Positions 3,505 to 61,871 of a DNA stretch of 64,000 nt are shown here, piece by piece; positions within the stretch are counted from its first letter, which is position 1; each line of letters begins with the position of its first letter. The stretch is taken from assembly GCA_000961725.1 (NCBI GenBank), contig LADS01000059.1, positions 1 through 64,000 on the forward strand, given 5' to 3'. The stretch is from Desulfobulbaceae bacterium BRH_c16a (lineage in GTDB: Bacteria > Desulfobacterota > Desulfobulbia > Desulfobulbales > Desulfocapsaceae). The notes beneath the pieces were generated by a model, which worked only from the letters and a program-made list of their open reading frames with translations, made no database searches and was not told the DNA's origin. Made by a program: the position numbers and the translations under genes.

Positions 3505-5001
3505 ATGGATCGAGATTCCAGACCGGTACTTGTGTTGGGGGCCACTGGTTATGTTGGCGGACGACTGGTGCCCCTTCTTCTCCAGCGCGGCTGGAAGGTG
3601 CGCGCCGCAGGGCGCTCCGACCGCAAGATCCAGAGTCGGCCCTGGGGCAGCCATCCCAACCTGGAGATCGTCGTTGCCGACGCTCTGGACACCGCAGTCC
3701 TCACCGAGGCCATGCGCGGTTGCCGGGCGGTGTTCTACCTCATCCATTCCGTCAGGCCCGGGGAACAGGATTTCGCCACCCTGGACCGGCGCATCGCCTA
3801 CTCCACGGTACACGCCGCCCGCGAAGCGGGAGTGGACTGGATTATCCATTTCACCGGTCTGGGCAACCCGGCGCATCTCTCGGATCAGCTGCGCTCGCGC
3901 TACGAGGTAGGTGCAATTCTGGCTCTGGGCGGCGCCAGGGTGACTCAGCTGCGTGCGCCTCTGGTCCTGGGCTCGGGCGGGGCCTCTTTCGAGATGATCC
4001 AGGCCTTCTGTGGGCATCTGCGGATCATGTTCGCCCCGCGCTGGATGGATGCCAGGTGCCAGCCCATCGCCATCGCCAATGTGGCCGAGTACCTGGCCGG
4101 TTGCCTGGAACACCCTGAAACCGCCGGACAGGTGTATGAGATCGGCGGCCCGGAAGTGCTTACCTGGCGTGAACTGTTCCACATCTATGCCGAAGAGGCC
4201 GGGCTGCCGGAACGCCTCGTCCTCGTGCTGCCCATGCGCATCCACCAGATTTCGATCGGCTGGATGAACCTGGTCACCCCGGTATCCGTGGCTCTCATTC
4301 GGCCCCTGGTGGAACGCATGCGCGACGAGATCCTCTGCCGCGACGAACGCATCCGCGAGATCGTCCCGCAAAAGCTTCTCTCCTGCCGCGAGGCCATCAT
4401 CAAGGCCCTGGCGGAGGTGTATCGGAATGAGGTCGCCTCCAGCTGCTTCGACGCGGGCTCCACCTATCTGCCGGAGTGGACCGGGGAGCAGGGTAAAGCC
4501 GGGACCAGGGTCTTCCGGGACATCTTCTCCATAACCCTGGATGGCCCACCGGAACTTGCCTGGGACGTGGTCAAGCGCATCGGCGGAAACACCGGCTGGT
4601 ATTTCGGCACCTGCCTCTGGCGGCTGCGCGGCTTGGTGGACGAACTGCTCGGCGGTCCGGGTCTGTCCCGGGGGCGCCGTCACGTGGATTCGGTGGCCGT
4701 GGGCGACTACCTGGATTTTTGGCGAGTGGTGGCCGTGGAAGACCATCGCCGTCTCCTGCTCCGGGCCGAGATGCTGGCCCCGGGCGAGGCCCTTCTGGAG
4801 TTTAGGATCCAGGTGCTGCCGGACGACTCCACCGAACTGCGCATGACCCCAAGCTTCGTGCCGCGTGGGATCTGGGGAAGGATGTACTGGTGGATCATCG
4901 CCCCATCCCACTCCTTGATGTTTAAACCCATGCTCAGGCAGATGGTCAAATCCGCCGGCGTCCGTGTCCTGAACGGCCCGTCCTGCGTCACGGAGGGCTG
5001 A
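3505..5001 (+). CDS. NAD(P)-binding SDR/NmrA-type oxidoreductase with C-terminal DUF2867 domain
   Basis: The product has 498 residues. The N-terminus carries a Rossmann dinucleotide motif GATGYVGG (12-19) and reads as an atypical short-chain dehydrogenase of the NmrA/YwnB type to about residue 320. The C-terminal part, about 340-490, matches in layout the DUF2867 half found in many proteins of this architecture. The substrate is not known. The TGA stop overlaps the ATG of the next gene (TGATG at 4999-5003), so the two are probably translated together. Codon use is GC-rich, unlike the following gene. Confidence 0.8.
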   Translation: MDRDSRPVLVLGATGYVGGRLVPLLLQRGWKVRAAGRSDRKIQSRPWGSHPNLEIVVADALDTAVLTEAMRGCRAVFYLIHSVRPGEQDFATLDRRIAYSTVHAAREAGVDWIIHFTGLGNPAHLSDQLRSRYEVGAILALGGARVTQLRAPLVLGSGGASFEMIQAFCGHLRIMFAPRWMDARCQPIAIANVAEYLAGCLEHPETAGQVYEIGGPEVLTWRELFHIYAEEAGLPERLVLVLPMRIHQISIGWMNLVTPVSVALIRPLVERMRDEILCRDERIREIVPQKLLSCREAIIKALAEVYRNEVASSCFDAGSTYLPEWTGEQGKAGTRVFRDIFSITLDGPPELAWDVVKRIGGNTGWYFGTCLWRLRGLVDELLGGPGLSRGRRHVDSVAVGDYLDFWRVVAVEDHRRLLLRAEMLAPGEALLEFRIQVLPDDSTELRMTPSFVPRGIWGRMYWWIIAPSHSLMFKPMLRQMVKSAGVRVLNGPSCVTEG

Positions 5002-5360
5002 TGAACATGAATAATAAAAATATCCCTTTTCAGACGATCGATTGGACTCAGGTACCTAAAACAGAACATAAGGGCGCGACAGGCGTTGCCTATTGGCAGA
5101 CCCTGCAGTTTGAAGGGCTAAGGATCAGAATTGTCCACTATTCTGCGGGGTATGTCGCTGATCATTGGTGTGAAAAAGGTCACATAGTACATTGTCTTGA
5201 GGGCGAAGTTGTCAATGAACAAAAAGATGGGACACATTCAATATTAACTCCAGGTATGTCTTATGTGGTATCAGATGAGTTGAGTTCTCACCGTTCTGTT
5301 ACAAAAAATGGTGTGAAGTTGCTGATTATTGACGGGGATTTCCTGAAACTGCAAAGCTGA
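5001..5360 (+). CDS. DHCW-motif cupin-fold protein
   Basis: This is a 119-residue single-domain cupin. The sequence VADHWCEKGHIVHCLEGE contains the DHWCEKGH motif, which gives the family its name, and the following glycine-rich turn of cupin motif 1. It is probably metal binding, but no substrate is established. Its start codon overlaps the stop of the upstream oxidoreductase. It is notably richer in A+T than that gene, which suggests a different origin for the two partners. Confidence 0.8.
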   Translation: MNMNNKNIPFQTIDWTQVPKTEHKGATGVAYWQTLQFEGLRIRIVHYSAGYVADHWCEKGHIVHCLEGEVVNEQKDGTHSILTPGMSYVVSDELSSHRSVTKNGVKLLIIDGDFLKLQS

Positions 5361-5506
5361 AATAGAGGCAAGCGGGCGTATATCGAAATCTCGCAGGAAT
5401 GTATTTCCGTTGCGGCCCTAAAAAATCCCAAGAAAGAGACAGGAGAAGCTCAAATGTATTGCAATACAAGAAATGCCCGGGACGAGCCGCTGCACGCGCT
5501 ACGCAT

Positions 5507-6436
5507 ATGACACTCCACATTGACACACCTCTCGTCGAATCCCGCCAGTTAAGCTTGGTATCAGGACGTTCAGTCTGGCTGAAGCTTGAAGCGCTGCAGC
5601 CGCCAGGCTCGTTCAAGATACGCGGCATCGGGTTTGCCTGCGAAACCTATCTTGCCCGAGGCGCTCGACGGTTCGTTTCGTCGTCCGGTGGAAATGCAGG
5701 TCTGGCGGTCGCATATGCAGGCCGCAGGCTGTCGGTTCCCGTCACGGTAGTCGTTCCGGAAACTACGTCCGAAAGGGCGAAAAAACTCCTGCGGCTGGAA
5801 GATGCCGAAGTCATAGTGCATGGAGTTTCCTGGCAGGAAGCAAACGCCTTTGCGCTTTCGCTGGTCGGCATAGCCGATGCATTCCTTCACCCTTTTGACG
5901 ACCCTCTGCTTTGGCAGGGCCACGCCACGATGGTGGATGAAGTTTTTCGTTCCGGGCTCGAACCCGACGTTATTGTCCTTTCAGTCGGCGGCGGTGGCCT
6001 GTTGTCTGGCGTCGCAGAAGGGCTTCACCGGAACGGATGGGGGCACATTCCAATTCTCGCCGTTGAAACCGAGGGAGCCGCGTCTTACCACGAAGCGACG
6101 AAGGCCGGGTTTCCCGTCGAGCTGGAAGGCATCACAAGCATCGCAACCTCTCTTGGGGCCAAACGTGTCTGTGAAAGAGCCATGCAATGGTGGGAGGATC
6201 ACCCTGTCCGCAGCGTCCTGGTTACCGATAAAAGCGCACTCCGGGCATGCGAGCGGTTTCTTGCCGATCACCGATTACTTGTCGAGCCTGCCTGCGGTGC
6301 AAGCCTTGCCCCGGTCTACGACAATGCACCGGAGCTCCAGCAATTCGGTACCGTCCTGGTCATTGTCTGCGGCGGTGCCACCGCAACGATGGACCAAATA
6401 CGGCAATGGTCGAAGAGATATAAAGCAATAAGGTAA
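5507..6436 (+). CDS. PLP-dependent serine/threonine dehydratase-like enzyme
   Basis: The product has 309 residues and is a fold-type II PLP enzyme. PPGSFKIRG (32-40) holds the Schiff-base Lys37, SSGGNAGLA (59-67) the substrate-carboxylate loop, and SVGGGGLLSG (159-168) the phosphate-binding loop. The order and length fit L-serine/L-threonine ammonia-lyases that form pyruvate or 2-oxobutyrate. There is no ACT regulatory domain. The start at 5507 is chosen because the conserved region begins directly after it; an upstream in-frame ATG at 5399 would add 36 residues of unrelated sequence. The exact amino acid cannot be told from sequence. Confidence 0.8.
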   Translation: MTLHIDTPLVESRQLSLVSGRSVWLKLEALQPPGSFKIRGIGFACETYLARGARRFVSSSGGNAGLAVAYAGRRLSVPVTVVVPETTSERAKKLLRLEDAEVIVHGVSWQEANAFALSLVGIADAFLHPFDDPLLWQGHATMVDEVFRSGLEPDVIVLSVGGGGLLSGVAEGLHRNGWGHIPILAVETEGAASYHEATKAGFPVELEGITSIATSLGAKRVCERAMQWWEDHPVRSVLVTDKSALRACERFLADHRLLVEPACGASLAPVYDNAPELQQFGTVLVIVCGGATATMDQIRQWSKRYKAIR

Positions 6437-6465
6437 GTCTGCTGCCGGATTTGACAGGAGCAATA

Positions 6466-7071
6466 ATGGCTAAGAAAATAATAGGAATTGTCGGGAGTTA
6501 CCGTAAAAACGGGATGATCGACCGCCTGGTAACGGAAACGTTGGCGAGTGCGGAGGCCCTGGGGGCTGTCACGAAGAAAATATATCTGACAGACGTCCAT
6601 ATCGAATTTTGTAATAACTGCCGCTACTGTACGCAAAAACCAGGTCCTGAACCCGGGAAGTGTGTTCATGCCGATGACTTCAACGTCATCCTGAGCGAAT
6701 GGCAGGAATCTGACGGACTGGTAATCGGTTCTCCGGTGAACTTCTACAACGTAACCGCGGTAACACGGAGATTCATGGAAAGGCTGGTCTGTTTTTCCTA
6801 CTGGCCCTGGGGGCAGCACAGCCCCAAAATGAGATCCGGGAACAAAGACAAGAAGGCGGTTTTAATCACCTCATCGGCCATGCCTTCATTTATGGGACGG
6901 ATCTTCACAGGCGCTCCGCGAGCCTTGCGGCTCATTGCCACCACGATGGGCGCCAAACCTGTAAAAACAATATTTGCCGGTCTGGCCGCTCAGGAGGAAA
7001 ACCCGGTACCCTCGGAGAAGGCTATTCGTCAAGCTCGTGTGGCAGGCCGTCAACTTGCCGGAGGGCAATGA
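6466..7071 (+). CDS. NADPH-dependent FMN reductase / iron-sulfur flavoprotein-like protein
   Basis: The product has 201 residues with a flavodoxin-like fold; GIVGSYRKNGMID (7-19) is the FMN phosphate-binding loop. A cysteine cluster C49-x2-C52-x2-C55-x10-C66 resembles the compact cluster of Isf-type flavoproteins, although the last spacing is longer than usual. GSPVNFYNVTA is the second flavin-binding loop. It probably moves electrons in the cytoplasm; the partner is unknown. The start follows CAGGAG at a normal distance. It lies 29 bases after the dehydratase gene on the same strand. Confidence 0.75.
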   Translation: MAKKIIGIVGSYRKNGMIDRLVTETLASAEALGAVTKKIYLTDVHIEFCNNCRYCTQKPGPEPGKCVHADDFNVILSEWQESDGLVIGSPVNFYNVTAVTRRFMERLVCFSYWPWGQHSPKMRSGNKDKKAVLITSSAMPSFMGRIFTGAPRALRLIATTMGAKPVKTIFAGLAAQEENPVPSEKAIRQARVAGRQLAGGQ

Positions 7072-7186
7072 ATTATCACCGGCAACCATATGCAGAAAAG
7101 AAATATGATCAAATTTATTATCCCGGCAACCGACTTTATTCCGGTTCAGAGGCGGCCGCTCACGGGTAATAGAGGGAGGAGGAGAT

Positions 7187-7240
7187 ATGGAAGATAAGCA
7201 ACGATTGGACAGGACATATGGGCTTGAAAGAGAAAAATGA
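7187..7240 (+). CDS. 17-codon open frame coupled to the downstream GNAT gene
   Basis: A very strong ribosome site (AGGGAGGAGGAG, ending four bases before the ATG at 7187) serves this short frame, which encodes MEDKQRLDRTYGLEREK. Its TGA overlaps the ATG of the next gene (ATGA at 7237-7240), while that gene has only a weak ribosome site of its own. This looks like a translationally coupled leader, or the stub of a deleted gene. No peptide function is implied. Confidence 0.35.
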   Translation: MEDKQRLDRTYGLEREK

Positions 7241-7731
7241 AAATTAGGCAGGCAAAGCATTCCGATTTTAATAGAATAGCAGATATTCATATCGAAAGCT
7301 GGCGGAATTCTTATCTGAATGTTTTACCTTCGGATTTTTTTGGTGAAAAAATTGTTCATACTTTGAAACAGCACTGGAGCAAGGTTGAAATCCAAGATGG
7401 AGATGTGGTCTTAGTTGCAGAAGAAAAAGAGATCATTGGATTTATAGCGGTGTGGTGCCGACCAACTCCGTTTATAGACAATTTGCATGTTAAACCTTCT
7501 CAGCGATCCCGAAATGTTGGAACCGCATTAATGAGGGCCGCTGCAGAAGAACTTGTCAAAAATGGCAATAGTACTGGGTTTCTCTGGGTTTTTAACAGTA
7601 ATGTGTACGCTATCAGATTTTATGAAAACCTTGGGGGTGTTCAGAAAGAACTCGATATTAAAGAAATATTCGGACATGATGTGATAAGCAGGAAAATGGA
7701 GTGGAATGACATCTCAACCATTATAAAATAA
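7237..7731 (+). CDS. GNAT-family N-acetyltransferase
   Basis: The product has 164 residues. The N-terminus (MKIRQAKHSDFNRIADIHIESW) is the usual beta1-alpha1 of GNAT enzymes, and DNLHVKPSQRSRNVGTALMRAA near residue 85-105 is the acetyl-CoA pyrophosphate-binding motif A (R/Q-x-x-G-x-A). YENLGGVQ is the typical C-terminal turn. The acceptor is unknown. The coding sequence is AT-rich. Translation probably depends on the 17-codon frame just upstream. Confidence 0.85.
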   Translation: MKIRQAKHSDFNRIADIHIESWRNSYLNVLPSDFFGEKIVHTLKQHWSKVEIQDGDVVLVAEEKEIIGFIAVWCRPTPFIDNLHVKPSQRSRNVGTALMRAAAEELVKNGNSTGFLWVFNSNVYAIRFYENLGGVQKELDIKEIFGHDVISRKMEWNDISTIIK

Positions 7732-7850
7732 TAGCTAATATGCCCAATATGCCCAACATGTCATGACGTCTTCCCACCCGTAAAAAAGCTTGGGGATAAA
7801 ATAAAGTAAAGGATATAGAACAAATGCCCTTCACGTCTGAAGTAGCTGGA

Positions 7851-8324
7851 ATGCATATCCGTGAAGCATCGAGCGGGGATATTTCAATCATGGCCGCACA
7901 TCATGGAAAGATGTTCGAAGAAATTTGGGAGCAAAAAGGCGAGCAGCTCCAAACCACAAGAATTGCCGAAATTGAAAAAGCTTACACTCGAAAATTGGCA
8001 ACCGAAATGGAGAACGGAACCTGTAAAGCTTGGGTGATTGAGGATAAAGGAAAGATCGTTTCAAGCGGTGCAATCACTTTCGTTAGTTTTGTGCCGAATC
8101 CATCGGATTTATCCTCAAAAGTTGCATACTTGCACAGCATGTATACTGAAAGATCCCACAGAAACAAGAAGTGTGCTCAACGAATTATCCAGAGGGCGAT
8201 CACATATTGTAGTTCAAATGGAATTAAGCGAGTCTTACTCAATGCAAGTGATGCGGGGCAACCTGTGTATCATAAAATCGGTTTTCGTTCCGCACCGGAT
8301 ACAATGAGGCTGCTTATTAAATGA
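7851..8324 (+). CDS. GNAT-family N-acetyltransferase
   Basis: The product has 157 residues. It begins MHIREASSGDISIMAAHH, and LHSMYTERSHRNKKCAQRIIQRA gives motif A, here with KKCA instead of the usual G-x-G/A loop, followed by YHKIGFRSAPDTM at the C-terminus. The start at 7851 is preferred over an in-frame ATG at 7824 because the conserved strand begins at MHIRE. Two GNAT genes in a row, plus a third GNAT domain near 11 kb, are a feature of this accessory stretch. The substrate is unknown. Confidence 0.8.
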   Translation: MHIREASSGDISIMAAHHGKMFEEIWEQKGEQLQTTRIAEIEKAYTRKLATEMENGTCKAWVIEDKGKIVSSGAITFVSFVPNPSDLSSKVAYLHSMYTERSHRNKKCAQRIIQRAITYCSSNGIKRVLLNASDAGQPVYHKIGFRSAPDTMRLLIK

Positions 8325-8398
8325 AGAAAACACTTTAACCATCTCTTTTATCGGATCGCAAAAAGTCGCGCCCGCCAAAGAGCAACGTTCGCAGCCAA

Positions 8399-8740
8399 GT
8401 GGATTATATAACGACAATCAAATCAATTTTTTATTTTGTTCTTGCAGGTCTTTTTGAGATCGGCGGGGGATATTTGGTCTGGCTATGGCTGCGTGAAGGC
8501 AAACCATTATGGTATGCAGTCATAGGTGGAATAATTCTTGTCCTCTATGGTGTTGTCCCAACTCTGCAGCCTGCCCATTTTGGCCGCGTTTATGCGGCTT
8601 ATGGAGGAATATTTATTGTCCTCTCAATTTTATGGGGCTGGAAAATCGACAAAATTGCGCCGGATAGATTCGACATCATCGGTGGGTTGGTGGCTTTGGT
8701 TGGGGTAAGTATCATCATGTATTGGCCTCGACCACAATGA
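8399..8740 (+). CDS. ynfA: YnfA/UPF0060 family small membrane protein
   Basis: The product has 113 residues and four predicted membrane segments. The signature [20 protein letters not shown] and later [20 protein letters not shown] identify the UPF0060/YnfA family, which is related in topology to small multidrug-resistance proteins. The family function is not settled. Translation appears to start at GTG 8399, which matches where relatives start. It sits in the same-strand accessory run. Confidence 0.9.
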
Positions 8741-53395: not shown

Positions 53396-54439
53396 TCAGA
53401 AGACTCGCGTGTCTATGCCGAACAGGTCTTCGGCAAGGGAGTTGGCAACCAGATTTGTCGGCCTTTTCTGCCGATCGGACAATTTGTATATCTCCAGCAG
53501 TGTCTCCCCAATTGCCGCAGTCCGCTGCATGGCCTGCTTTTCGTCGTAGGCCTTGCCGATCTCGCAGCTGATATTTATCACCCCGCCGGCGTTGGCGGCG
53601 TAATCCGGAGCATAGAGAATGCCCCGCCGGTACAGCAGGGCGCCGTCTTCCTCGGTATGCAGCTGGTTGTTGGCGCTGCCGGCAACTATCTGGCAGAGCA
53701 GGCCTGGAATGGTCCGGCTGTTGAGAATCCCGCCCAAAGCGCAGGGCGCAAAAATATCGCACGCTGCGCTGTAGATCTCATCCGGTCTCGCCAGCTCGAA
53801 ATCGAGTTTCCGGGCAAGGGCGTCGATATGATCCTGATTGATATCCGAGGCAATTATGCGGCAATGGTCCTTTTTCAGCAGTTCGGCAAGCCTGCCGCCT
53901 GTTTCGCCGATCCCCTGGATGGCGACGGTAAGCCCGTCCAGCCGTTCTCTTTTCAGGGTATGTCTCACACTGGCCTTGATGGCGCAATAAACCCCGTAGG
54001 CTGTGAAGGGGCTCGGGTTGCCGCTGGCGCCGACGGTGGCGACATGGCTTGTCCGGCGCTTCACCGCCACCATGTCTTCGAGAGTCGAGTTGACATCCTC
54101 GGCGGTGATGTATCGTCCGTCGAGGGACTCGACGAAATTGCCGATTTCTTCGAAGAGGGCAACCCGGTCGACTTTTTTCAGATCGGCATGGACAACGCTT
54201 TTGCCGCCGCCCAAAGGGAGGCGGGCGAGGGCGTTTTTATAGGTCATTCCTTTACTGAGCCGCAGGACATCGGTCAGGGCTGAATCCGCCGATTCGTAAC
54301 GCCATACCCGGCAGCCGCCGAGAGCCGGACCGCGGTGGGAATTATGGGTGGCGATCCACGCGGTGAAACCGACTTCGGGGTTGTCGCACCTGACGACCTC
54401 TTCATAACCGGGTATTTCGAGCTCCGTATATCTGTTCAT
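53396..54439 (-). CDS. Leucine/branched-chain-type amino acid dehydrogenase (Glu/Leu/Phe/Val family)
   Basis: The product has 347 residues, the length of leucine dehydrogenases and much shorter than GDH. GPALGGCRVWRYESADSALTDVLRLSKGMTYKNALARLPLGGGKSVV includes the catalytic Lys pair (K in MTYKNAL; K in GGGKSVV), and VAIQGIGETGGRLAELLKK is the NAD-binding loop. It deaminates branched-chain amino acids to 2-oxo acids with NAD. It is the last gene of the 2-oxoacid:ferredoxin oxidoreductase operon, 40 bases after the gamma subunit, which makes the substrate assignment plausible. The start at 54439 has GAGGAA eight bases upstream. Confidence 0.88.
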   Translation of the reverse strand: MNRYTELEIPGYEEVVRCDNPEVGFTAWIATHNSHRGPALGGCRVWRYESADSALTDVLRLSKGMTYKNALARLPLGGGKSVVHADLKKVDRVALFEEIGNFVESLDGRYITAEDVNSTLEDMVAVKRRTSHVATVGASGNPSPFTAYGVYCAIKASVRHTLKRERLDGLTVAIQGIGETGGRLAELLKKDHCRIIASDINQDHIDALARKLDFELARPDEIYSAACDIFAPCALGGILNSRTIPGLLCQIVAGSANNQLHTEEDGALLYRRGILYAPDYAANAGGVINISCEIGKAYDEKQAMQRTAAIGETLLEIYKLSDRQKRPTNLVANSLAEDLFGIDTRVF

Positions 54440-54479
54440 TGGCATTTCCTCTGCAACTCTATGGTCTGTTTTGTATCTA

Positions 54480-55046
54480 TCACGCGGCCATGGCCTGTTT
54501 TGTTCCGAGCACTGCCTCGGCACCACGGTGCAGTGCGAGAATGTTCCGATCCAGCAGGCGATGCGCCTTTTCTCCGAAAACCTTTTTAAACGCCAGGGCG
54601 ACACTTTCAACGCTCACCACTTTGGAGAGGGCCAGGTACGCGCCCAGCATGATCATGTTCGCCGCTCTGGCATTGCCGCATTCCGCCGCAAGGTCGTTGG
54701 CGGCAATGGCAAAGACCCGGATGTCCTGCCGGTCGACAGGCTTGTCGATCAGGGAGCTGTTCACCAGCAGCACGCCGCCAGGCGCCACGCTTTGCTCGAA
54801 TTTCAGCAGCGAGGGCAGATTCATGACAATGACGCAGGTGGCATTGCGGGTCACAATCGGCGAGCCGACCGGCGTGTCGGAGACCACAACACTGCAGTAC
54901 GCCGTGCCGCCGCGCATCTCCGGACCATAGGACGGCAACCAGGTTACGTGCTTGTTCTCGATCATTCCGGCATAGGTCAGGAGTTGTCCCAGGGACATGA
55001 CTCCCTGACCGCCAAAGCCTGCACAGAGTATTCGCTCGTTACACAT
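54480..55046 (-). CDS. 2-oxoacid:ferredoxin oxidoreductase, gamma subunit
   Basis: The product has 188 residues. RILCAGFGGQGVMSLGQLLTYAG is the standard gamma-subunit N-terminus and YGPEMRGGTAYCSVVVSD the following motif. It completes a four-subunit enzyme with the three genes upstream (delta, alpha, beta). Its start lies directly next to the stop of the beta gene. The enzyme oxidises 2-oxoacids to acyl-CoA, CO2 and reduced ferredoxin in the cytoplasm. Confidence 0.93.
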   Translation of the reverse strand: MCNERILCAGFGGQGVMSLGQLLTYAGMIENKHVTWLPSYGPEMRGGTAYCSVVVSDTPVGSPIVTRNATCVIVMNLPSLLKFEQSVAPGGVLLVNSSLIDKPVDRQDIRVFAIAANDLAAECGNARAANMIMLGAYLALSKVVSVESVALAFKKVFGEKAHRLLDRNILALHRGAEAVLGTKQAMAA

Positions 55047-55790
55047 TTACGCCTCCTCCGGTGATCTCAGGACACCGAGTGGATAATAGGGGATCATGTT
55101 ATCTTCCAACCACTGCAGGGAATCGACAGGCGAGAGCCCCCAGCCGGTCGGACAGGTCGAAAGCACTTCGATAAGGGAAAAACCAAAGCCGCCCATCTGG
55201 CAGAGAAAGCCGTTGCGGATCGCTTTCTTAGCCTGGCGCACGGCCTTTGGGCTGTGGACGGAAACCCGTTCTACATACGCGGCTCCGGGGATCTGGGCAA
55301 TCATCTCCGAGACTCTCAAGGGCATGCCGCAATGGGCGACATCCCTGCCTTCGGGCGCGGTGGTGACCTTCTGCATGGGAAGTGTGGTCGGCGCCATCTG
55401 TCCGCCGGTCATGCCGTAGATGGCGTTATTGACGAAGATGGTGGTGATCTTTTCACCGCGATGCGCGACGTGGACGATTTCTGCGGTCCCGATCGAGGCA
55501 AGGTCGCCGTCGCCCTGATAAGTGAAAACCGGCTTGGTGGGATGGACTCTTTTGACGCCGGTGGCCACGGCCGGAGCCCTGCCATGCGCCGATTCGATCA
55601 TGTCGACGTTGAGGTAGTTATACGACAGCACCGAGCAGCCCACCGAGGCACAGCCGATAGCGTCGTTCAGCAGGTCGAGTTCCACCAGCACTTCCGCAAC
55701 CAGCCGGTGAATGAGGCCATGGGTGCAACCGGGACAATAATGGGTGTCTTTGTCGGTCAGGCCCTTTGATCTTGCATAGATAACAGTCAT
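55047..55790 (-). CDS. 2-oxoacid:ferredoxin oxidoreductase, beta (TPP-binding) subunit
   Basis: The product has 247 residues. HYCPGCTHGLIHRL and SVGCSVLSYNYLNVD come first, then the TPP motif YQGDGDLASIGTAEIVHVAHRGEKITTIFVNNAIYGMTGGQ. Substrate contacts of this short form fit 2-oxoisovalerate or 2-oxoglutarate enzymes. It overlaps the alpha gene by one base. Confidence 0.93.
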   Translation of the reverse strand: MTVIYARSKGLTDKDTHYCPGCTHGLIHRLVAEVLVELDLLNDAIGCASVGCSVLSYNYLNVDMIESAHGRAPAVATGVKRVHPTKPVFTYQGDGDLASIGTAEIVHVAHRGEKITTIFVNNAIYGMTGGQMAPTTLPMQKVTTAPEGRDVAHCGMPLRVSEMIAQIPGAAYVERVSVHSPKAVRQAKKAIRNGFLCQMGGFGFSLIEVLSTCPTGWGLSPVDSLQWLEDNMIPYYPLGVLRSPEEA

Positions 55791-56848
55791 TATGCCCTCC
55801 CGAGAAGATTTTTAACTTTTGCCGCGATTTCTTCCGGAACCGGAATGATCCCGCCTGACCTGCCGTAGAAGGCGACGGGTAACCGGCCGTTGACCGCCAG
55901 CCGCACATCGTCGACCATCTGGCCGCAGCTCATTTCCACAGTAAGAATCATACGGCAGGATTCGGGGAGGCCCTCGAAGGCGGCAACGGGAAACGGCCAT
56001 AAAGTCTGGGGGCGTATAAGGCCCGCGGTGATTTTTTCAGCCGCCAGCAGATCGATGGCATTCCTGGCAATGCGGGCCGTCGAGCCATAGGCACAGAGGA
56101 TGATTTCGGCTCCTTCGGTGCGGTAACTTTCCCAGCGGGTTTCGGCGGCGGCGATCCGGGCGTATTTGGCCTGGAGATCGAGATTTCTCTGCTCCAGCAC
56201 GATGGGGTCGAGGGCCAGGGTTTTAACGGTATTCGGTTTGCGCTTGCCGCCATGGCCTACCGCCAGCCAATCTTTTGCCGGCAGTTCGCGGTGAGTTTTT
56301 TCCGGGAGTTCAACCGGTTCCATCATCTGGCCCAGCATGCCGTCGCTGACGATGAACACCGGAGTGCGGTAGATTTCTGCCAGGTCGAAAGCCGCCATCA
56401 TCATTTCCGCGCCTTCCTGGACGGTGGACGGGGCAAAAGAAAGAATCCGGTAATCGCCATTGCCCCCGCCGCGGGTCATCTGGTAGTAGTCGGCCTGGGA
56501 GGGCTGAATGGTGCCGATGCCGGGGCCGCCGCGCTGGACGTTGACAATGACACAGGGCAGCTCGGCCGCGGCAAGGGACGACATGCCTTCCTGCATCAGG
56601 GCAATGCCAGGCGAGGATGAAGAAGTCATCGGCCTGCCGCCGGCGGCTGCCGCACCGTACACCATATTGATGGCCGCCAGTTCGCTTTCGGCCTGGAGAA
56701 AGACCCCGCCGGTCCTGGGAAATTCTCTTGCCAGAAATTCGGGGATTTCATTTTGCGGCGTGATGGGATAACCGAAGAAATGGGTGCACCCGCCTTTGAT
56801 GGCGGCAAGGGCAAGTGCTTCATTGCCTTTCATCAAGGTCTTAGACAT
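55790..56848 (-). CDS. 2-oxoacid:ferredoxin oxidoreductase, alpha subunit
   Basis: The product has 352 residues, a stand-alone alpha subunit of the Kor/Vor type. GNEALALAAIKGGCTHFFGYPITPQNEIPEF is the pyrimidine-binding N-terminus, and MTSSSSPGIALMQEGMSSLAAAELPCVIVNVQRGGPGIGT the core. It overlaps the ferredoxin-like delta gene by eight bases. With the branched-chain-type dehydrogenase in the operon, a 2-oxoisovalerate (VOR) role is favoured over 2-oxoglutarate, but this is inference. Confidence 0.93.
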   Translation of the reverse strand: MSKTLMKGNEALALAAIKGGCTHFFGYPITPQNEIPEFLAREFPRTGGVFLQAESELAAINMVYGAAAAGGRPMTSSSSPGIALMQEGMSSLAAAELPCVIVNVQRGGPGIGTIQPSQADYYQMTRGGGNGDYRILSFAPSTVQEGAEMMMAAFDLAEIYRTPVFIVSDGMLGQMMEPVELPEKTHRELPAKDWLAVGHGGKRKPNTVKTLALDPIVLEQRNLDLQAKYARIAAAETRWESYRTEGAEIILCAYGSTARIARNAIDLLAAEKITAGLIRPQTLWPFPVAAFEGLPESCRMILTVEMSCGQMVDDVRLAVNGRLPVAFYGRSGGIIPVPEEIAAKVKNLLGRA

Positions 56849-57089
56849 GTTCGGCCCTCCTTTTCACGGTAAATCGCTCGACAGTGATAACGGAGTCGGG
56901 ACACATCAGGGCGCAGTTGCCGCAGCCAATGCATTGTGCCGGAGAAGAGATGGAGGCTGGACTGTAGCCTTTGAGGTTTACCGTGCTTTCGTCGATGACG
57001 ATGATTTCCTCGGGACAAGCAATAATACAGAGGCCGCAACCTTTACAACTGTTGGTCGCAATGCGCACTCTTCCCTTCAATTCAGCCAT
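56841..57089 (-). CDS. 2-oxoacid:ferredoxin oxidoreductase, delta (2x4Fe-4S) subunit
   Basis: The product has 82 residues with two cluster motifs, CKGCGLCIIACP and CIGCGNCALMCP. It passes electrons from the TPP/4Fe-4S centre to external ferredoxin. It is the first gene of the operon and follows a GGGGAGG ribosome site. Confidence 0.93.
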   Translation of the reverse strand: MAELKGRVRIATNSCKGCGLCIIACPEEIIVIDESTVNLKGYSPASISSPAQCIGCGNCALMCPDSVITVERFTVKRRAEHV

Positions 57090-57373: not shown

Positions 57374-57949
57374 TCAGCTCGGTTTATAGATTACCACCAG
57401 AGTTTTGGCCGGCCCGCCGATCCCGCGGTAGCCGTGTGGAACGATAGAATCGAAATAGAGGCTGTCGCCCTCTTCGAGTACGACGACATTCTCACCGCAG
57501 CGAAATTCGAGCCTGCCTTCCAGGACATAAAGAAATTCTTCGCCTTTATGATTGTTGTAAACGATCGCATCGGCCTCTCTTTCTTCCATATGGACGATGA
57601 AAGGTTCCATGCTCTTGTCTACTTTCGGGTAGGCGAGGGGCTCGTATTGATAGCCGATGTGCGAAATATGGGGGCCTTTGGCGACGCCGTATCTGTCCGT
57701 TTTCCTCGTCACCACCATGCTGCTGTCCTGGTTGTTGGCCTGGAAAAAATGGCCGATAGAGACACCCAGGGCTGTGGCAATTTTTAAGAGGGTGGCGATG
57801 GGCGGGGTAACCAGATTGTTCTCGATCTGGGACAGGTTGGGTTTTGACAGCCCGGTAAGGTCAGCCAGATCCTGCAGCGTCAGCCCGCGTCGGTTGCGGA
57901 GCGAACGAACCTGGTGGCCTATGTCGAGAGAAGCAAGTTCATCTTTCAT
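57374..57949 (-). CDS. XRE-family regulator with cupin domain
   Basis: The product has 191 residues. The HTH (about 11-66, LRNRRGLTLQDLADLTGLSK then PNLSQIENNLVTPPIATLLKI) is followed by a cupin barrel (about 75-190, with GEEFLYVLEGRLEFRCG and FDSIVPHGYRG). This layout is found in regulators of amino acid or polyamine metabolism that sense a small ligand in the cupin. It lies upstream of the 2-oxoacid oxidoreductase operon, in the same direction, and may control it. Confidence 0.9.
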   Translation of the reverse strand: MKDELASLDIGHQVRSLRNRRGLTLQDLADLTGLSKPNLSQIENNLVTPPIATLLKIATALGVSIGHFFQANNQDSSMVVTRKTDRYGVAKGPHISHIGYQYEPLAYPKVDKSMEPFIVHMEEREADAIVYNNHKGEEFLYVLEGRLEFRCGENVVVLEEGDSLYFDSIVPHGYRGIGGPAKTLVVIYKPS

Positions 57950-58084: not shown

Positions 58085-58675
58085 CTAAAGGTTTTGATCA
58101 TAATAACAATTTCTAATGGATGCCATGGTTGTTTTGCCGTGGGCAATTGATACGGCCAGTTTCCAGACCTCCGGTTTGAATACCTGCCGCAGGGGTTGTT
58201 CGACTTCCGGCAGACGAGTAAAGGCATTTCGCAGTTGGCTGTCCCAGCGATCGCTGTAGCGGAGGAGGTCGTCAGGGTAGACGGTGTTACGGTCGGTCCC
58301 TTCGGAATCGACGGAAAAAGGGGCGATAATGTTCAAGAAGCCGTAGTCGTCGGTAAGTTCCTCGCCCGGCTCGATGTCTCTGATGGCAATTTCAAAGTTG
58401 TAGGGCGTCAGGCAGCAATTGTTACGGAAACTGTGATTGATAAAACGCTCGTTGTCCCAGCAGAAAACCAGGTTGCCTTTGTTGTTCCGGTAAGAATAGG
58501 TGAGGACAGCCTCCCGGCAGGGTTCGGAAAACCGATCAAGCCGGTCCATGGGAATCTCCCGGTCAAGGTCGTCAAAAACCCAGGTTACCGTGCCTTTCGG
58601 GATCCTTGCCGTGGCTAACACCCCGTGGCCTTTGACTTCGTTTATGTAAACTACTTCCGTGCAGCCTATAATCAT
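58085..58675 (-). CDS. SET-domain protein methyltransferase
   Basis: The product has 196 residues. The N-terminal SET motif KGHGVLATARIPKGTVTW binds the cofactor, and the C-terminal knot is formed by RFINHSFRNN (77-86, N-H-S) and GEELTDDYGF (104-113). All are hallmarks of SET lysine methyltransferases using SAM. Cys-rich post-SET is absent. The last 60 residues include WDSQLRNAFTRLPEVEQPLRQVF and are family-specific. It is the third gene of an operon with a RimK-like ligase and a GNAT. The target, presumably a protein or peptide, is unknown. Confidence 0.88.
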   Translation of the reverse strand: MIIGCTEVVYINEVKGHGVLATARIPKGTVTWVFDDLDREIPMDRLDRFSEPCREAVLTYSYRNNKGNLVFCWDNERFINHSFRNNCCLTPYNFEIAIRDIEPGEELTDDYGFLNIIAPFSVDSEGTDRNTVYPDDLLRYSDRWDSQLRNAFTRLPEVEQPLRQVFKPEVWKLAVSIAHGKTTMASIRNCYYDQNL

Positions 58676-58689
58676 CTTTTTATCGGCAC

Positions 58690-59142
58690 CTAATCGAGAG
58701 TTTTTCGCATGAGAATTGCGTGACCGCCATCCTCGTAGTAGCCGAGGCGAAAGCCGTATTGGGCAAAACCATGTTTCTTATACAAGCCGAGAGCCGCAAT
58801 ATTGCTGTCGCTTACCTCCAGGGTGAGCATTGTGCATTTGCTGTCCCTGGAAATTCTTTCAAGTACCTCCAGGAGCTTGCCCGCCAGTCCTTCCCCCCTG
58901 GCTGTCGCCGTGATCCCAAAGGAATAGATCCGCATCTTGCGGCTGTTTTTTCTGCCCAGCAAAATGGCGTAACCGAGAATTTCGGCACTATCTTGCCGTT
59001 TGACCACGAGAACGTGAGCTCGCCTGATCAAGTACCTGAAGCTTTTCTTCGAACAACGGTCGGTTTTGAACAGGGAGATTTCAAGTGCCGCAAGCTGATC
59101 GACATCGGCCGGTACCGCCGGTACAAAGAGATACCCGGTCAT
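58690..59142 (-). CDS. RimI-like GNAT N-acetyltransferase
   Basis: The product has 150 residues. SFGITATARGEGLAGKLLEVLER is motif A and LEVSDSNIAALGLYKKHGFAQYG the C-terminal arm, as in protein N-terminal acetyltransferases. It is one base after the stop of the ATP-grasp gene and 14 bases before the SET gene, so all three are translated from one mRNA. The acceptor is unknown. Confidence 0.88.
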   Translation of the reverse strand: MTGYLFVPAVPADVDQLAALEISLFKTDRCSKKSFRYLIRRAHVLVVKRQDSAEILGYAILLGRKNSRKMRIYSFGITATARGEGLAGKLLEVLERISRDSKCTMLTLEVSDSNIAALGLYKKHGFAQYGFRLGYYEDGGHAILMRKTLD

Positions 59143-59143
59143 T

Positions 59144-60622
59144 TTACTTATGCTGCTTGCTGTTTAGCCTGTTGACGAATTCCCGGAGGATGATTCGGTA
59201 CAGCTCATTGCCCATTATGGTATCTTCCACTCCGTGTTCGAGGGAAGGGTTGTCGTTTATCTCGATGACGATCGGCTGTTCGCCCACCATCTTGATGTCC
59301 ACCCCGTACAGTCCTTTGCCGATGAGTGAAGTGGCTTTGACCGCCAGCTTACGGACCCGGGAAGGGATGCTATTGAGTGGAATCGTCTCAAAACCGCCTG
59401 CCTTGGGGATTCTGTTGGCCCGATGCTGGATTATCTGCCAGTGGCCGCGGGCCATGAAGTATTTACAGCCGTAGATGCATTCTCCCCCGAGGACGCCGAT
59501 TCGCCAGTCGAAGTCGGTCGGCACAAACTCCTGGACAAGCAGAATCGACGAGCGGGGAAACAGCTCCTCGATTGCCTGTTCGTATTCATCTCTGGTTGCA
59601 ACCTTGGTCACTCCTATGGAAAACGACCCATCGGGAACTTTCACTACCATGGTTGCGCCAAGAGAGCTGCTCAGTTCTTCATAGCTTACCGGGTTGGTTT
59701 TGAAGATCAGCCGGGAAAGCGGACAGGGGATTTTTTCCCGGTCGAGCAGTTCTTTCAGGTAGACCTTGTTGGTGCAGAGAATGATTGAGGTCGGGTCGTC
59801 GATCACTACCATATCCGCCTGCTGCGCTTTTTTGGCAAGCTGGTAGGTAATGTGGTTGACGGCGGTTGTCTGACGAATGAACAGGGCATCGAATTCCATC
59901 AGCCGGGCGGAATCGTCGGCGGTGATGAGTTCGGCATTGATGTTCATCTTCTTGGCCTCGGAAACAAAGAGATGGAGCGCCGAGGCGTTACTTGTGGGAA
60001 TCTTCTCTTTCGGGTCGTGAAGGATGGCCAGATCGTAGCCGAAGGACTTCTTGCTTTTCGGATAGCGCCAGATCTTTTTATTGAAGCGATCGATGGCGTT
60101 GGCGAAAAGGGTTTGCTGGGCATCGTCCAGCTCGTTCAGAGACAGAGTGCGAAAATGATCAAGCTGGGAAAATTTATTGTCGGCGAAGGTCACTCTCAGC
60201 ATCGGGAAAGGAAATTGGTCGAAGATAAACTTCGCCAGCCGTTTGAGAGCAGGGACCTCGCAATCGCCGAAAAAGATATCAATGGTACATGGTGCGTCAC
60301 CGCCATTCTGGATGGAATTGCTGCTGACCCAGGAATGGCAGGTTTTTCTCAGCAGACCCTGCAGCTTGATGGTCCTGTCGCAGTCCAGGCTGTTGATCGC
60401 ATCGGCAGAAGGGATGACCTTGTGTTTTCTCGCCTGGGCCAGCAGCGAGCAGTAATACCCTTCCGAGTTGTAGCTGAGATCACTGCACAAATTGATGATG
60501 AGCAGATTTTCCTGGCTGAGTTTCTCGTTCTGCAGATACTCGCCGGCGGTAATGATGCTGTCGGTTTCATAATAGGGTTTCCAGTCGGAAACACTATCCA
60601 GTATTATCAATGTAGTAAGCAT
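59144..60622 (-). CDS. RimK-family ATP-grasp ligase with RLAN-type N-terminal domain
   Basis: The product has 492 residues. The N-terminal part (about 1-180, MLTTLIILDSVSDWKPYYET) is the RimK-like-ligase N-terminal domain, then an ATP-grasp fold (about 280-485): VVKVPDGSFSIGVTKV, LLVQEFVPTDFDWRIGVLGG and the metal-binding Glu/Asn pair in QPIVIEINDNPSLEHGVED. Such ligases add amino acids, often glutamate, to carboxylates of proteins or peptides. The start at 60622 is chosen over an upstream in-frame start that lies in the terminator hairpin. First gene of the ligase-GNAT-SET operon. Confidence 0.9.
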   Translation of the reverse strand: MLTTLIILDSVSDWKPYYETDSIITAGEYLQNEKLSQENLLIINLCSDLSYNSEGYYCSLLAQARKHKVIPSADAINSLDCDRTIKLQGLLRKTCHSWVSSNSIQNGGDAPCTIDIFFGDCEVPALKRLAKFIFDQFPFPMLRVTFADNKFSQLDHFRTLSLNELDDAQQTLFANAIDRFNKKIWRYPKSKKSFGYDLAILHDPKEKIPTSNASALHLFVSEAKKMNINAELITADDSARLMEFDALFIRQTTAVNHITYQLAKKAQQADMVVIDDPTSIILCTNKVYLKELLDREKIPCPLSRLIFKTNPVSYEELSSSLGATMVVKVPDGSFSIGVTKVATRDEYEQAIEELFPRSSILLVQEFVPTDFDWRIGVLGGECIYGCKYFMARGHWQIIQHRANRIPKAGGFETIPLNSIPSRVRKLAVKATSLIGKGLYGVDIKMVGEQPIVIEINDNPSLEHGVEDTIMGNELYRIILREFVNRLNSKQHK

Positions 60623-60638: not shown

Positions 60639-60665
60639 GCCGGCCGGACGACAGGTCCGGCCGGC
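60639..60665. terminator. Terminator-like hairpin after citrate synthase
   Basis: GCCGGCCGGAC and its exact complement form an 11-bp GC stem with a 5-base loop between the citrate synthase stop and the ATP-grasp start. There is no T-run on the minus strand, so termination may be incomplete. Confidence 0.6.
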
Positions 60666-60710
60666 ATGGTTTTGTTTTATGAGGTGTGGGCTTGCATTGC
60701 CGGTGCCCGG

Positions 60711-61871
60711 TTAACCGCGAGCCCGCTCTTTTATCGGAATGTAGCAATATGATTTGGGGCCGATGTATTCGGCTCGCGGACGGATTAGCTTGTTGTTGCT
60801 CCATTGCTCGAGAATATGGGAGGTCCAGCCGACGGTCCTGCTGATTGCGAAAATCGGAGTGAACAGTTCCATCGGCAAGCCTATGGCGTTGTACAGTGAG
60901 GCAGTAAAAAGATCGACGTTTGGAAATACCTTGGTACGTTCAACGACAACTTTCTGGATTTCCTGAGTAATTTCGAAATAGGTCGTGTCGCCGGTTTTTT
61001 CCGCCAGGATCTGCGCATAATTACGTAACACGTCGACCCGGGGATCTTCGCAACGATACACCCGATGGCCGAATCCCGGGATTTTTTCTTTTCTGGCCAA
61101 CTTGTCTTCGATAAAGGCGCGGGCCTTGCCCGGATCGCCTATTTCTCTCAAGAGCTGCATGACTTCCATATTCGCGCCTCCGTGCAGCGGCCCTTTCAGG
61201 GTGCCGATTGCCGAAGTTACCGAAGAATAGATATCGGCCATGGTCGAGGCGGTGACCCGGGCGGAAAATGTCGAGGCATTCAACTCGTGATCGGCGTGAA
61301 GAATCAGGGCGGCGTCAAACGCTTTTTCGGCAAGAGGATCCGGTGCCTTGCCGAACAGGGTATAGAGGAAATTGTAGGCAATGCCATGCCCGGGAATCGG
61401 TTTTATGGGTTCCTGCCCTTCCCGGAGCCGCTGGTGGGCGGCAATGAGCAAAGGGATGCGCAGGGTGAGTCGCTGGGCTTTGCGCAGGTTGGCGTCAAGA
61501 CCGGTATTGCCGCTGTCCGGATCCCAGTGGCCGAGGGAGGAAACGGCAGTTCTGATTACCTCCATCGGGGTCGCAGCCTTGGGAAACATTCGCAGAATCA
61601 TGACGGTTTCGACGGGAAGCTCCATCGATCCGGTAAAGCCGGCCAGAAATGCCTTGAATTCAGTCGGTCTTGGCAAAGCTCCATACCAGAGAAGATAGGC
61701 GACCTCTTCAAAGGTCGATTGTTTGGATAATTCAATGGCATCATAGCCCCGGTAAATGAGTCGGCCTTCCTCCCCATCTATGTAACATATCTCGGATTCA
61801 CAGATAGTGATATCGGCCAATCCAAGACCAATATTTTGTGATGTTGGCTCCTTTACGGCAACCGCTGTCAT
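60711..61871 (-). CDS. gltA: Citrate synthase (Si-type, short bacterial form)
   Basis: The product has 386 residues. The catalytic residues are in HADHELNAST (His), IPGFGHRVY (His) and VFPNVDLFTASLYNAIGLP (Asp). Length and motifs fit the small citrate/2-methylcitrate synthase group; which acceptor is preferred cannot be told. It condenses acetyl-CoA and oxaloacetate. The promoter region holds a -24/-12-like site. Confidence 0.92.
   Translation of the reverse strand: MTAVAVKEPTSQNIGLGLADITICESEICYIDGEEGRLIYRGYDAIELSKQSTFEEVAYLLWYGALPRPTEFKAFLAGFTGSMELPVETVMILRMFPKAATPMEVIRTAVSSLGHWDPDSGNTGLDANLRKAQRLTLRIPLLIAAHQRLREGQEPIKPIPGHGIAYNFLYTLFGKAPDPLAEKAFDAALILHADHELNASTFSARVTASTMADIYSSVTSAIGTLKGPLHGGANMEVMQLLREIGDPGKARAFIEDKLARKEKIPGFGHRVYRCEDPRVDVLRNYAQILAEKTGDTTYFEITQEIQKVVVERTKVFPNVDLFTASLYNAIGLPMELFTPIFAISRTVGWTSHILEQWSNNKLIRPRAEYIGPKSYCYIPIKERARG

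Follow-up and report, generated by a model that had tools for sequence, protein, structure and literature searches.

The 64,000-nucleotide stretch analyzed here (positions 1 to 64,000 of contig LADS01000059.1 of Desulfobulbaceae bacterium BRH_c16a; hereafter, the window) carries on its minus strand, in this order, the genes for a ligase with RLAN and RimK-type ATP-grasp domains, a GNAT acetyltransferase and a SET-domain methyltransferase, separated by intergenic gaps of 1 and 14 bases. Such an arrangement raises the question of whether the three enzymes serve one pathway and, if so, on what kind of substrate they would act. The three same-strand genes, their short gaps and their intact family motifs, all described in the original prediction made for this DNA, were confirmed by open reading frame (ORF) calls, Pfam searches and alignments. 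We consider that a common pathway for the trio is well supported, since the linkage is real, is maintained within the class sample and reappears with ligases of different kinds. The coupling between ligase and SET is also well supported, without being obligatory. To the reading that the trio encodes one modification pathway of the peptide or metabolite type we give an even chance.

Conservation of the Gene Trio within the Class

The class sample comprised 257 genomes searched of 300 requested, including that of the window, with SET detected by profile A1; some of these genomes are incomplete. SET was found in 25 of the 257 genomes and RLAN in 79. The original prediction took the link for chance if close homologues of the three genes were rarely adjacent in other genomes. 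Inspection of the neighborhoods of close SET homologues revealed, on the contrary, that adjacency is common: ligase, GNAT and SET were contiguous in 18 of the 25 genomes that have SET (17 fetched loci and the window), and SET and an RLAN ligase lay within one cluster in 20 of them. In addition, RLAN was present in 23 of the 25 SET genomes versus 56 of the 232 without SET (one-sided Fisher test, 2e-11, ignoring kinship). In a search of 117 genomes, that of the window included, the trio order was seen in 17 of the 20 loci at which SET was matched over its full length. Other arrangements were also observed. SET, GNAT, C39, RLAN and GCS2 genes follow one another in a row in genome G234, and G011, G021 and G102 possess both SET and RLAN, apart or on separate contigs; in G021 and G102, contig fragmentation may have masked or mimicked a true separation. 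In G102, the ligase belongs to the kind accompanied by C39 and GCS2, and the SET gene is followed by a GNAT resembling that of G234. No RLAN match was obtained in G184 and G047, the SET of the latter being merely a fragment.

SET Neighborhoods in Other Lineages

A scan of genome contigs confirmed 298 stretches as SET relatives, and the best 80 loci were kept. As a control, ORFs of at least 130 amino acids in these loci were classified as near SET (same strand and within two genes) or not. RimK-type ligases accounted for 15 of the 188 near ORFs versus none of the 682 others, by which a chance neighborhood was rejected, and GNATs, recognized with a profile built from the operon GNATs themselves, for 20 of 188 versus 7 of 682. 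A ligase of the window kind adjoins SET in 10 of the 80 loci (L028-L037; several record names are Desulfobulbales), and when these were removed ligases made up 7 of 160 near ORFs versus 0 of 587 others, and GNATs 10 of 160 versus 6 of 587. Altogether, at 24 of the 80 loci at least one of the two partners, a RimK-type ligase or a GNAT, is encoded within two same-strand genes of SET. The ORF caller merged or missed some ORFs, among them the ligases of two further loci, L032 and L033, which were seen by tblastn. The most frequent Pfam families among the 126 operon-type neighbors (same strand, gaps of at most 150 bases and at most 900 amino acids, longer proteins being dropped) were Acetyltransf_1 (17), ATP-grasp_3 (15) and RimK (14), followed by RLAN (9) and by CN_hydrolase, Rimk_N and Zn_protease (6 each).

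The partners of SET vary among lineages. A RimB-RimK fusion stands directly before SET in 6 of the 80 loci, all of Flavobacteriaceae; in one of these, L063, a GNAT-nitrilase type protein (5081-8591) is found ahead of RimB-RimK and SET. The RimK matches are uninformative in this family, because they are present in 125 of 149 genomes, and GNAT-nitrilases occur in 19 of the 23 genomes with SET versus 48 of the 126 others, ignoring kinship. Loci L040, L041, L044, L045, L046 and L104 have a GNAT ahead of SET and no RimK-type ligase with them; by Pfam this GNAT is a GNAT-nitrilase in L044 and L045, and in the other four it was assigned by clustering, sequence or script. In Prolixibacteraceae and their kin, GNAT and RLAN ligase are fused into a single protein, and the Draconibacterium locus consists of such a fusion, an MgtC-like gene and SET. 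This small MgtC-family gene (L080, 7531-8004) overlaps the SET start by four bases. Prolixibacteraceae represent a second phylum: within a sample of 140 of their genomes, centered on one chosen for having SET and RLAN, all 8 genomes with a clear SET contained RLAN versus 42 of the 132 others (ignoring kinship), absences being unsure because at most six candidates per genome were scored, and SET adjoins RLAN in two of the 8 (G258 and G516).

Other relatives are carried by plasmids. The SET proteins of four Priestia megaterium plasmids (L233, L234, L235 and L238), 45-47% identical, are encoded near annotated YjcZ-type or spore-coat genes, and no ligase was seen among their annotated neighbors within 6 kb, in gene tables that are incomplete. 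In a plasmid of Streptomyces sp. SAT1 (L239; NZ_CP016083.1, 728000-760000), only four bases separate a distant SET gene from the PGM1-type peptide ligase gene that precedes it. Downstream, the annotation gives a lysine 2,3-aminomutase, which had no Pfam match, and a Lys/Orn N-monooxygenase, which had one, and the opposite strand has a second ATP-grasp gene and a GNAT. The region, which looks like a possible peptide natural-product cluster, also holds a class I tRNA ligase-like gene. Finally, phage carriage was not supported, none of 65 pattern matches in viral contigs being confirmed.

The RLAN Ligase and Its Tree

The window ligase passed the Pfam cut-offs for both RLAN (135.1 bits, cut-off 25) and RimK (47.3 bits, cut-off 21). 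Residues K301, K343, R389, D457, E469, N471 and N473, to which we presume ATP-grasp catalytic roles, were invariant in 25 of 25 aligned ligases. The structural model was modest (predicted local distance difference test, pLDDT, of 68), and the matches listed were RimK, ArgX/LysX and D-Ala-D-Ala ligases (Ddl). An S6-glutamate ligase was rejected for the window ligase by family score, as the result with model NF007764 was 56.5 bits, far below the cut-off of 331, and no match at E <= 0.001 was obtained with TIGR03103, the N-acetylglutaminylglutamine synthetase trio model for a GNAT/ATP-grasp fusion. A graspetide-type reading was not favored: no precursor ORF was recognized between the trio genes, and the MvdC model, which matches the RimK of L063, was not among the window ligase matches at that same threshold.

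RLAN-domain (PF14401) ligases were reportedly placed in peptide-type operons, by contextual prediction, by Iyer et al. in 2009. In our collection, a C39-like peptidase adjoins RLAN in 30 of the 30 top-scoring loci (L131-L160, the best 30 of 83 matches), and a GCS2 ligase is also present in 29 of them; these loci mostly have no SET, L152 being the G234 locus. Beside the RLAN ligase of L191, a GNAT is fused to a DUF3335/C39-like peptidase (4990-7587), in a same-genus genome where SET was not found.

A tree was built with 79 ligases from fetched loci only, which are not all those of the 79 RLAN genomes; duplicates (L131, L144, L149, L152 and L216) and four loci taken as RLAN-free were omitted. 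The clade of the window ligase comprised 21 rows, 19 of them SET-adjacent, with 97% support. Next to it stands L217, from Bacteroidota, with a ligase-GNAT pair and SET elsewhere in its genome. The SET-adjacent state appeared in three separate parts of the tree, namely the window clade, the Prolixibacteraceae GNAT-RLAN fusions (L223 and L224) and the C39/GCS2 ligases (L181), and the starred branches force at least six gains or losses of SET adjacency. The SET tree had poor resolution, with 14 of its 89 inner branches starred, and origins were not counted from it.

The GNAT and SET Proteins

The operon GNAT passed Pfam Acetyltransf_1 (49.9 bits). It had been labeled RimI-like, and this was borne out by its profile match and its motifs, although not to the level of RimI itself: the RimI equivalog TIGR01575 gave 75.4 bits, below the cut-off of 86.4, and another gene of the genome scored 106.2 and passed. 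A housekeeping RimI was therefore rejected, and the operon GNAT is probably a different enzyme. The LEV..xN motif was kept in 17 of 17 GNATs paired with the window ligase clade and the tyrosine pair in 15 of them, the other two having FY; among those 15, one reads YYQNG instead of YYxDG. We take both LEV..xN and YYxDG to be motifs of RimI/NAT-like GNATs.

The SET protein exceeded the PF00856 cut-off with 47.1 bits. In the alignment, GxG, NH and the DYG tyrosine (Y111) were found in 19 of 19 sequences and the serine that follows NH in 18 of them. PDD, WD, QPL and C190 of the C-terminal region are conserved within the close family, and the SET core, W144 and Q160-P161-L162 also in aligned rows from other phyla. 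Neither a pre-SET nor a zinc post-SET cysteine cluster was seen by eye in the window protein. Structural matches of its model (pLDDT 85) include the histone-type SET domains of ASH1L, SET8 and MLL as well as BurB. The latter had the top target-normalized template modeling (TM) score, 0.56, among the 50 best matches, ranking 29 by E-value with a root-mean-square deviation of 8.9, and no BurB chain was present in the best 60 of 102 profile-search matches. To our knowledge, no substrate has been assigned to this bacterial SET family. A second SET-domain match exists in the source genome (G000, C22, 48301-48546; L002) with 28.7 bits, missed by profile A1 at its cut-off.

Gene Calls and Flanking Features

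The features of the locus are listed in Table 1. The longest ORF of the ligase begins at 60667. The start at 60622, which is that of the original prediction, is the better one, because M16, at that position, is nearly invariant among homologues and a perfect palindrome occupies 60639-60665. The region holds 6 terminator-like sites versus 5.2 expected from shuffles. The citrate synthase gene lies 88 bases from that of the ligase. C39-like peptidase and GCS2 genes were not among the window neighbors, the trio being flanked by the citrate synthase and the XRE-cupin regulator. Farther away on the same strand, 54480-57089 reads by eye as a 2-oxoacid:ferredoxin oxidoreductase cluster with a ferredoxin, beside which is an amino-acid dehydrogenase-like ORF (53396-54610).

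Table 1. Coordinates of the three operon genes and of the features flanking them in the window.
Feature	Coordinates	Strand	Evidence or remark
RLAN + RimK-type ATP-grasp ligase, 492 amino acids	59144..60622	-	PF14401 135 bits, PF08443 47 bits; longest ORF 507 amino acids from 60667
GNAT acetyltransferase, RimI/NAT-like, 150 amino acids	58690..59142	-	PF00583; TIGR01575 75.4 bits
SET-domain methyltransferase with own conserved C-terminal region, 196 amino acids	58085..58675	-	PF00856 47 bits
Citrate synthase (TIGR01800 family), conserved upstream neighbor	60711..61871	-	Possible part, candidate only
XRE-cupin regulator, downstream neighbor, context	57374..57949	-	Also in some close relatives: L164, L166, L175
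Perfect 11-bp G+C palindrome, context	60639..60665	.	Between citrate synthase and ligase

Proposed Pathway and Its Alternatives

The chemistries of the trio, namely formation of an ATP-dependent amide bond, acetyl transfer and methyl transfer, follow from the families. The RLAN ligase would couple an amino acid, at the expense of ATP, to the carboxylate of a short peptide or of an amino-acid-like acid, the RimI/NAT-like GNAT would acetylate a free alpha-amine on the substrate or product of the ligase, and SET would methylate, with S-adenosylmethionine, an amine or other nucleophile on the same product. We infer a shared substrate, this order of steps and, as the target, not a large protein but a small peptide or metabolite. 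For other ATP-grasp ligases, the authors of PMC4431377 posit that a peptide is first ligated and then capped by a GNAT of the operon; this is the nearest printed precedent that we have seen for the ligase and GNAT steps. As for the last step, BurB, a bacterial SET enzyme, methylates free methionine (PMC12542666), which shows that a free amino acid can be the substrate of a SET enzyme.

Several observations weigh against a peptide or metabolite pathway encoded by the trio. At 56 of the 80 SET loci both partners, RimK-type ligase and GNAT, are missing from the two nearest same-strand genes on either side, and the SET step can consequently exist without an adjoining ligase. From the original prediction of an uncharacterized modification pathway, the common pathway is retained on the strength of linkage, while successive action on one substrate and methylation of a protein lysine by SET stay putative. 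Outside the order of the window, for which 70 loci (L038-L107) were considered and 20 left out, including L043 and L047, whose record names point to Desulfobulbales, RLAN was present in 16 of the 50 SET genomes from L038-L106 and was found in none of the other 34. SET occurs in 23 of 149 Flavobacteriaceae, and among the matches listed it lies beside RimB-RimK in G257 and G399 only. In Prolixibacteraceae, the GNAT-RLAN fusion was matched in full in 37 genomes, of which 30 show no SET within the limit of six scored candidates, and G533 has a weak ninth SET without RLAN. Genome G164 has ligase and SET with no GNAT between or beside them, the GNAT of G234 has no RimI-like LEV/YY motifs, and the SET of the Streptomyces plasmid is just 27% identical in the alignment. 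Within the window locus no gene for a precursor peptide or substrate was recognized, and we know of no enzyme activity for any member of the trio families. A last point of this kind comes from the RimK part of L063, the only one tested, which reached 377.5 bits, over the S6-glutamate ligase cut-off; a protein substrate is therefore favored at loci of that kind.

This result and the position of RimB-RimK directly before SET fit a protein-modification cassette, in which the ligase would extend the tail by amino acids, the GNAT would acetylate the N-terminus and SET would methylate a lysine of the same, likeliest ribosomal, protein. The operon GNAT resembles protein N-terminal acetyltransferases, and the conservation of the SET core, W144 and Q160-P161-L162 across phyla suggests one kind of acceptor. 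However, the window ligase scores far under the S6 ligase cut-off, the RimI model is passed by a different gene of the genome, and the RLAN relatives inspected are linked to the C39-like peptidase and GCS2, so we regard a protein as an unlikely target of the window trio.

SET could also have an unrelated, general target and share only transcription with the ligase-GNAT pair. The loci where SET has neither partner near it, the position of SET away from the ligase in G011 and G021 and the Prolixibacteraceae with a fusion and no SET agree with this. But in several lineages SET adjoins ligases of different kinds, and it shares genomes with RLAN also where the two are not linked (G011, G021, G102 and 6 of 8 Prolixibacteraceae). 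A SET gene of independent function is in our opinion improbable.

Beta-citrylglutamate and N-acetylaspartylglutamate are products of RimK-like ligases in animals. A citrate- or methylcitrate-derived amide, for which the citrate synthase would give the acid, the ligase would couple the amino acid and GNAT and SET would modify the amine side, is very unlikely here. The citrate synthase gene stands ahead of that of the ligase at 16 of the 20 fetched window-clade loci besides the window, is kept also where SET lies elsewhere (L174) and need not be the housekeeping copy, as the assembly (6% estimated contamination) has three further matches. Yet no citrate synthase match was found at the other 4 loci or in the stretches fetched for G234 and Draconibacterium, and the link may be plain common descent within one family.

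The pathway acting on a peptide or metabolite may extend beyond the window. We tentatively propose, with somewhat less than an even chance, that ATP-grasp ligases of several families form with SET and an acetyltransferase a widespread, undescribed pathway making capped, methylated peptides or amino-acid conjugates, in which case this SET family would methylate peptides or metabolites instead of being histone-like enzymes. The enzyme families are already known. Among the matches listed in a search of full-text literature (titles and abstract starts, with subscription papers mostly outside), no paper paired RimK-type ligases with a bacterial SET gene. If true, the proposal would give a testable role to a bacterial SET family of 298 confirmed stretches and a new partner to RimK-type ligases, and histone-modification chemistry would be used by bacteria for tailoring peptides or metabolites. 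Some carriers are named cultured species, such as Desulfopila aestuarii, Draconibacterium aestuarii and Aquimarina latercula, and therefore the product could be sought.

Comparison with Known Systems

The RimK/RimB system of S6 shares with the window the ATP-grasp fold, RimK and RimK-RpsF being among the nearest solved structures of the window ligase, and in some Flavobacteriaceae RimB-RimK adjoins SET. In contrast, the window ligase has an RLAN N-terminus, misses the S6 model by a wide gap (56.5 bits vs 331) and has no neighboring RimB. RimI, the bS18-alanine N-acetyltransferase, is similar to the operon GNAT in profile and in LEV/YY motifs; nevertheless, the operon protein is beneath the curated cut-off that another gene of the genome exceeds. 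With ASH1L, MLL and SET8, which are lysine methyltransferases, the window SET shares core fold and motifs, although it has a conserved C-terminal region instead of pre-SET or zinc post-SET cysteines. BurB, a methionine S-methyltransferase, is also a small bacterial SET enzyme and a fold match, but it belongs to a different operon and is not in the best 60 of 102 profile matches.

The C39/RLAN-RimK/GCS2 operons contain the same RLAN and ATP-grasp family, with the same invariant residues, together with a GNAT (L181 and L191) and, in G234, SET, whereas the window locus has neither C39 peptidase nor GCS2 and its ligase falls in a separate, well-supported clade. Finally, the operons of R2K-type ATP-grasp ligases and GNATs belong to another ATP-grasp clade, and SET is not mentioned in the available portion of their description (PMC4431377), but they resemble the window in that a ligase is linked to GNATs, for which capping was proposed.

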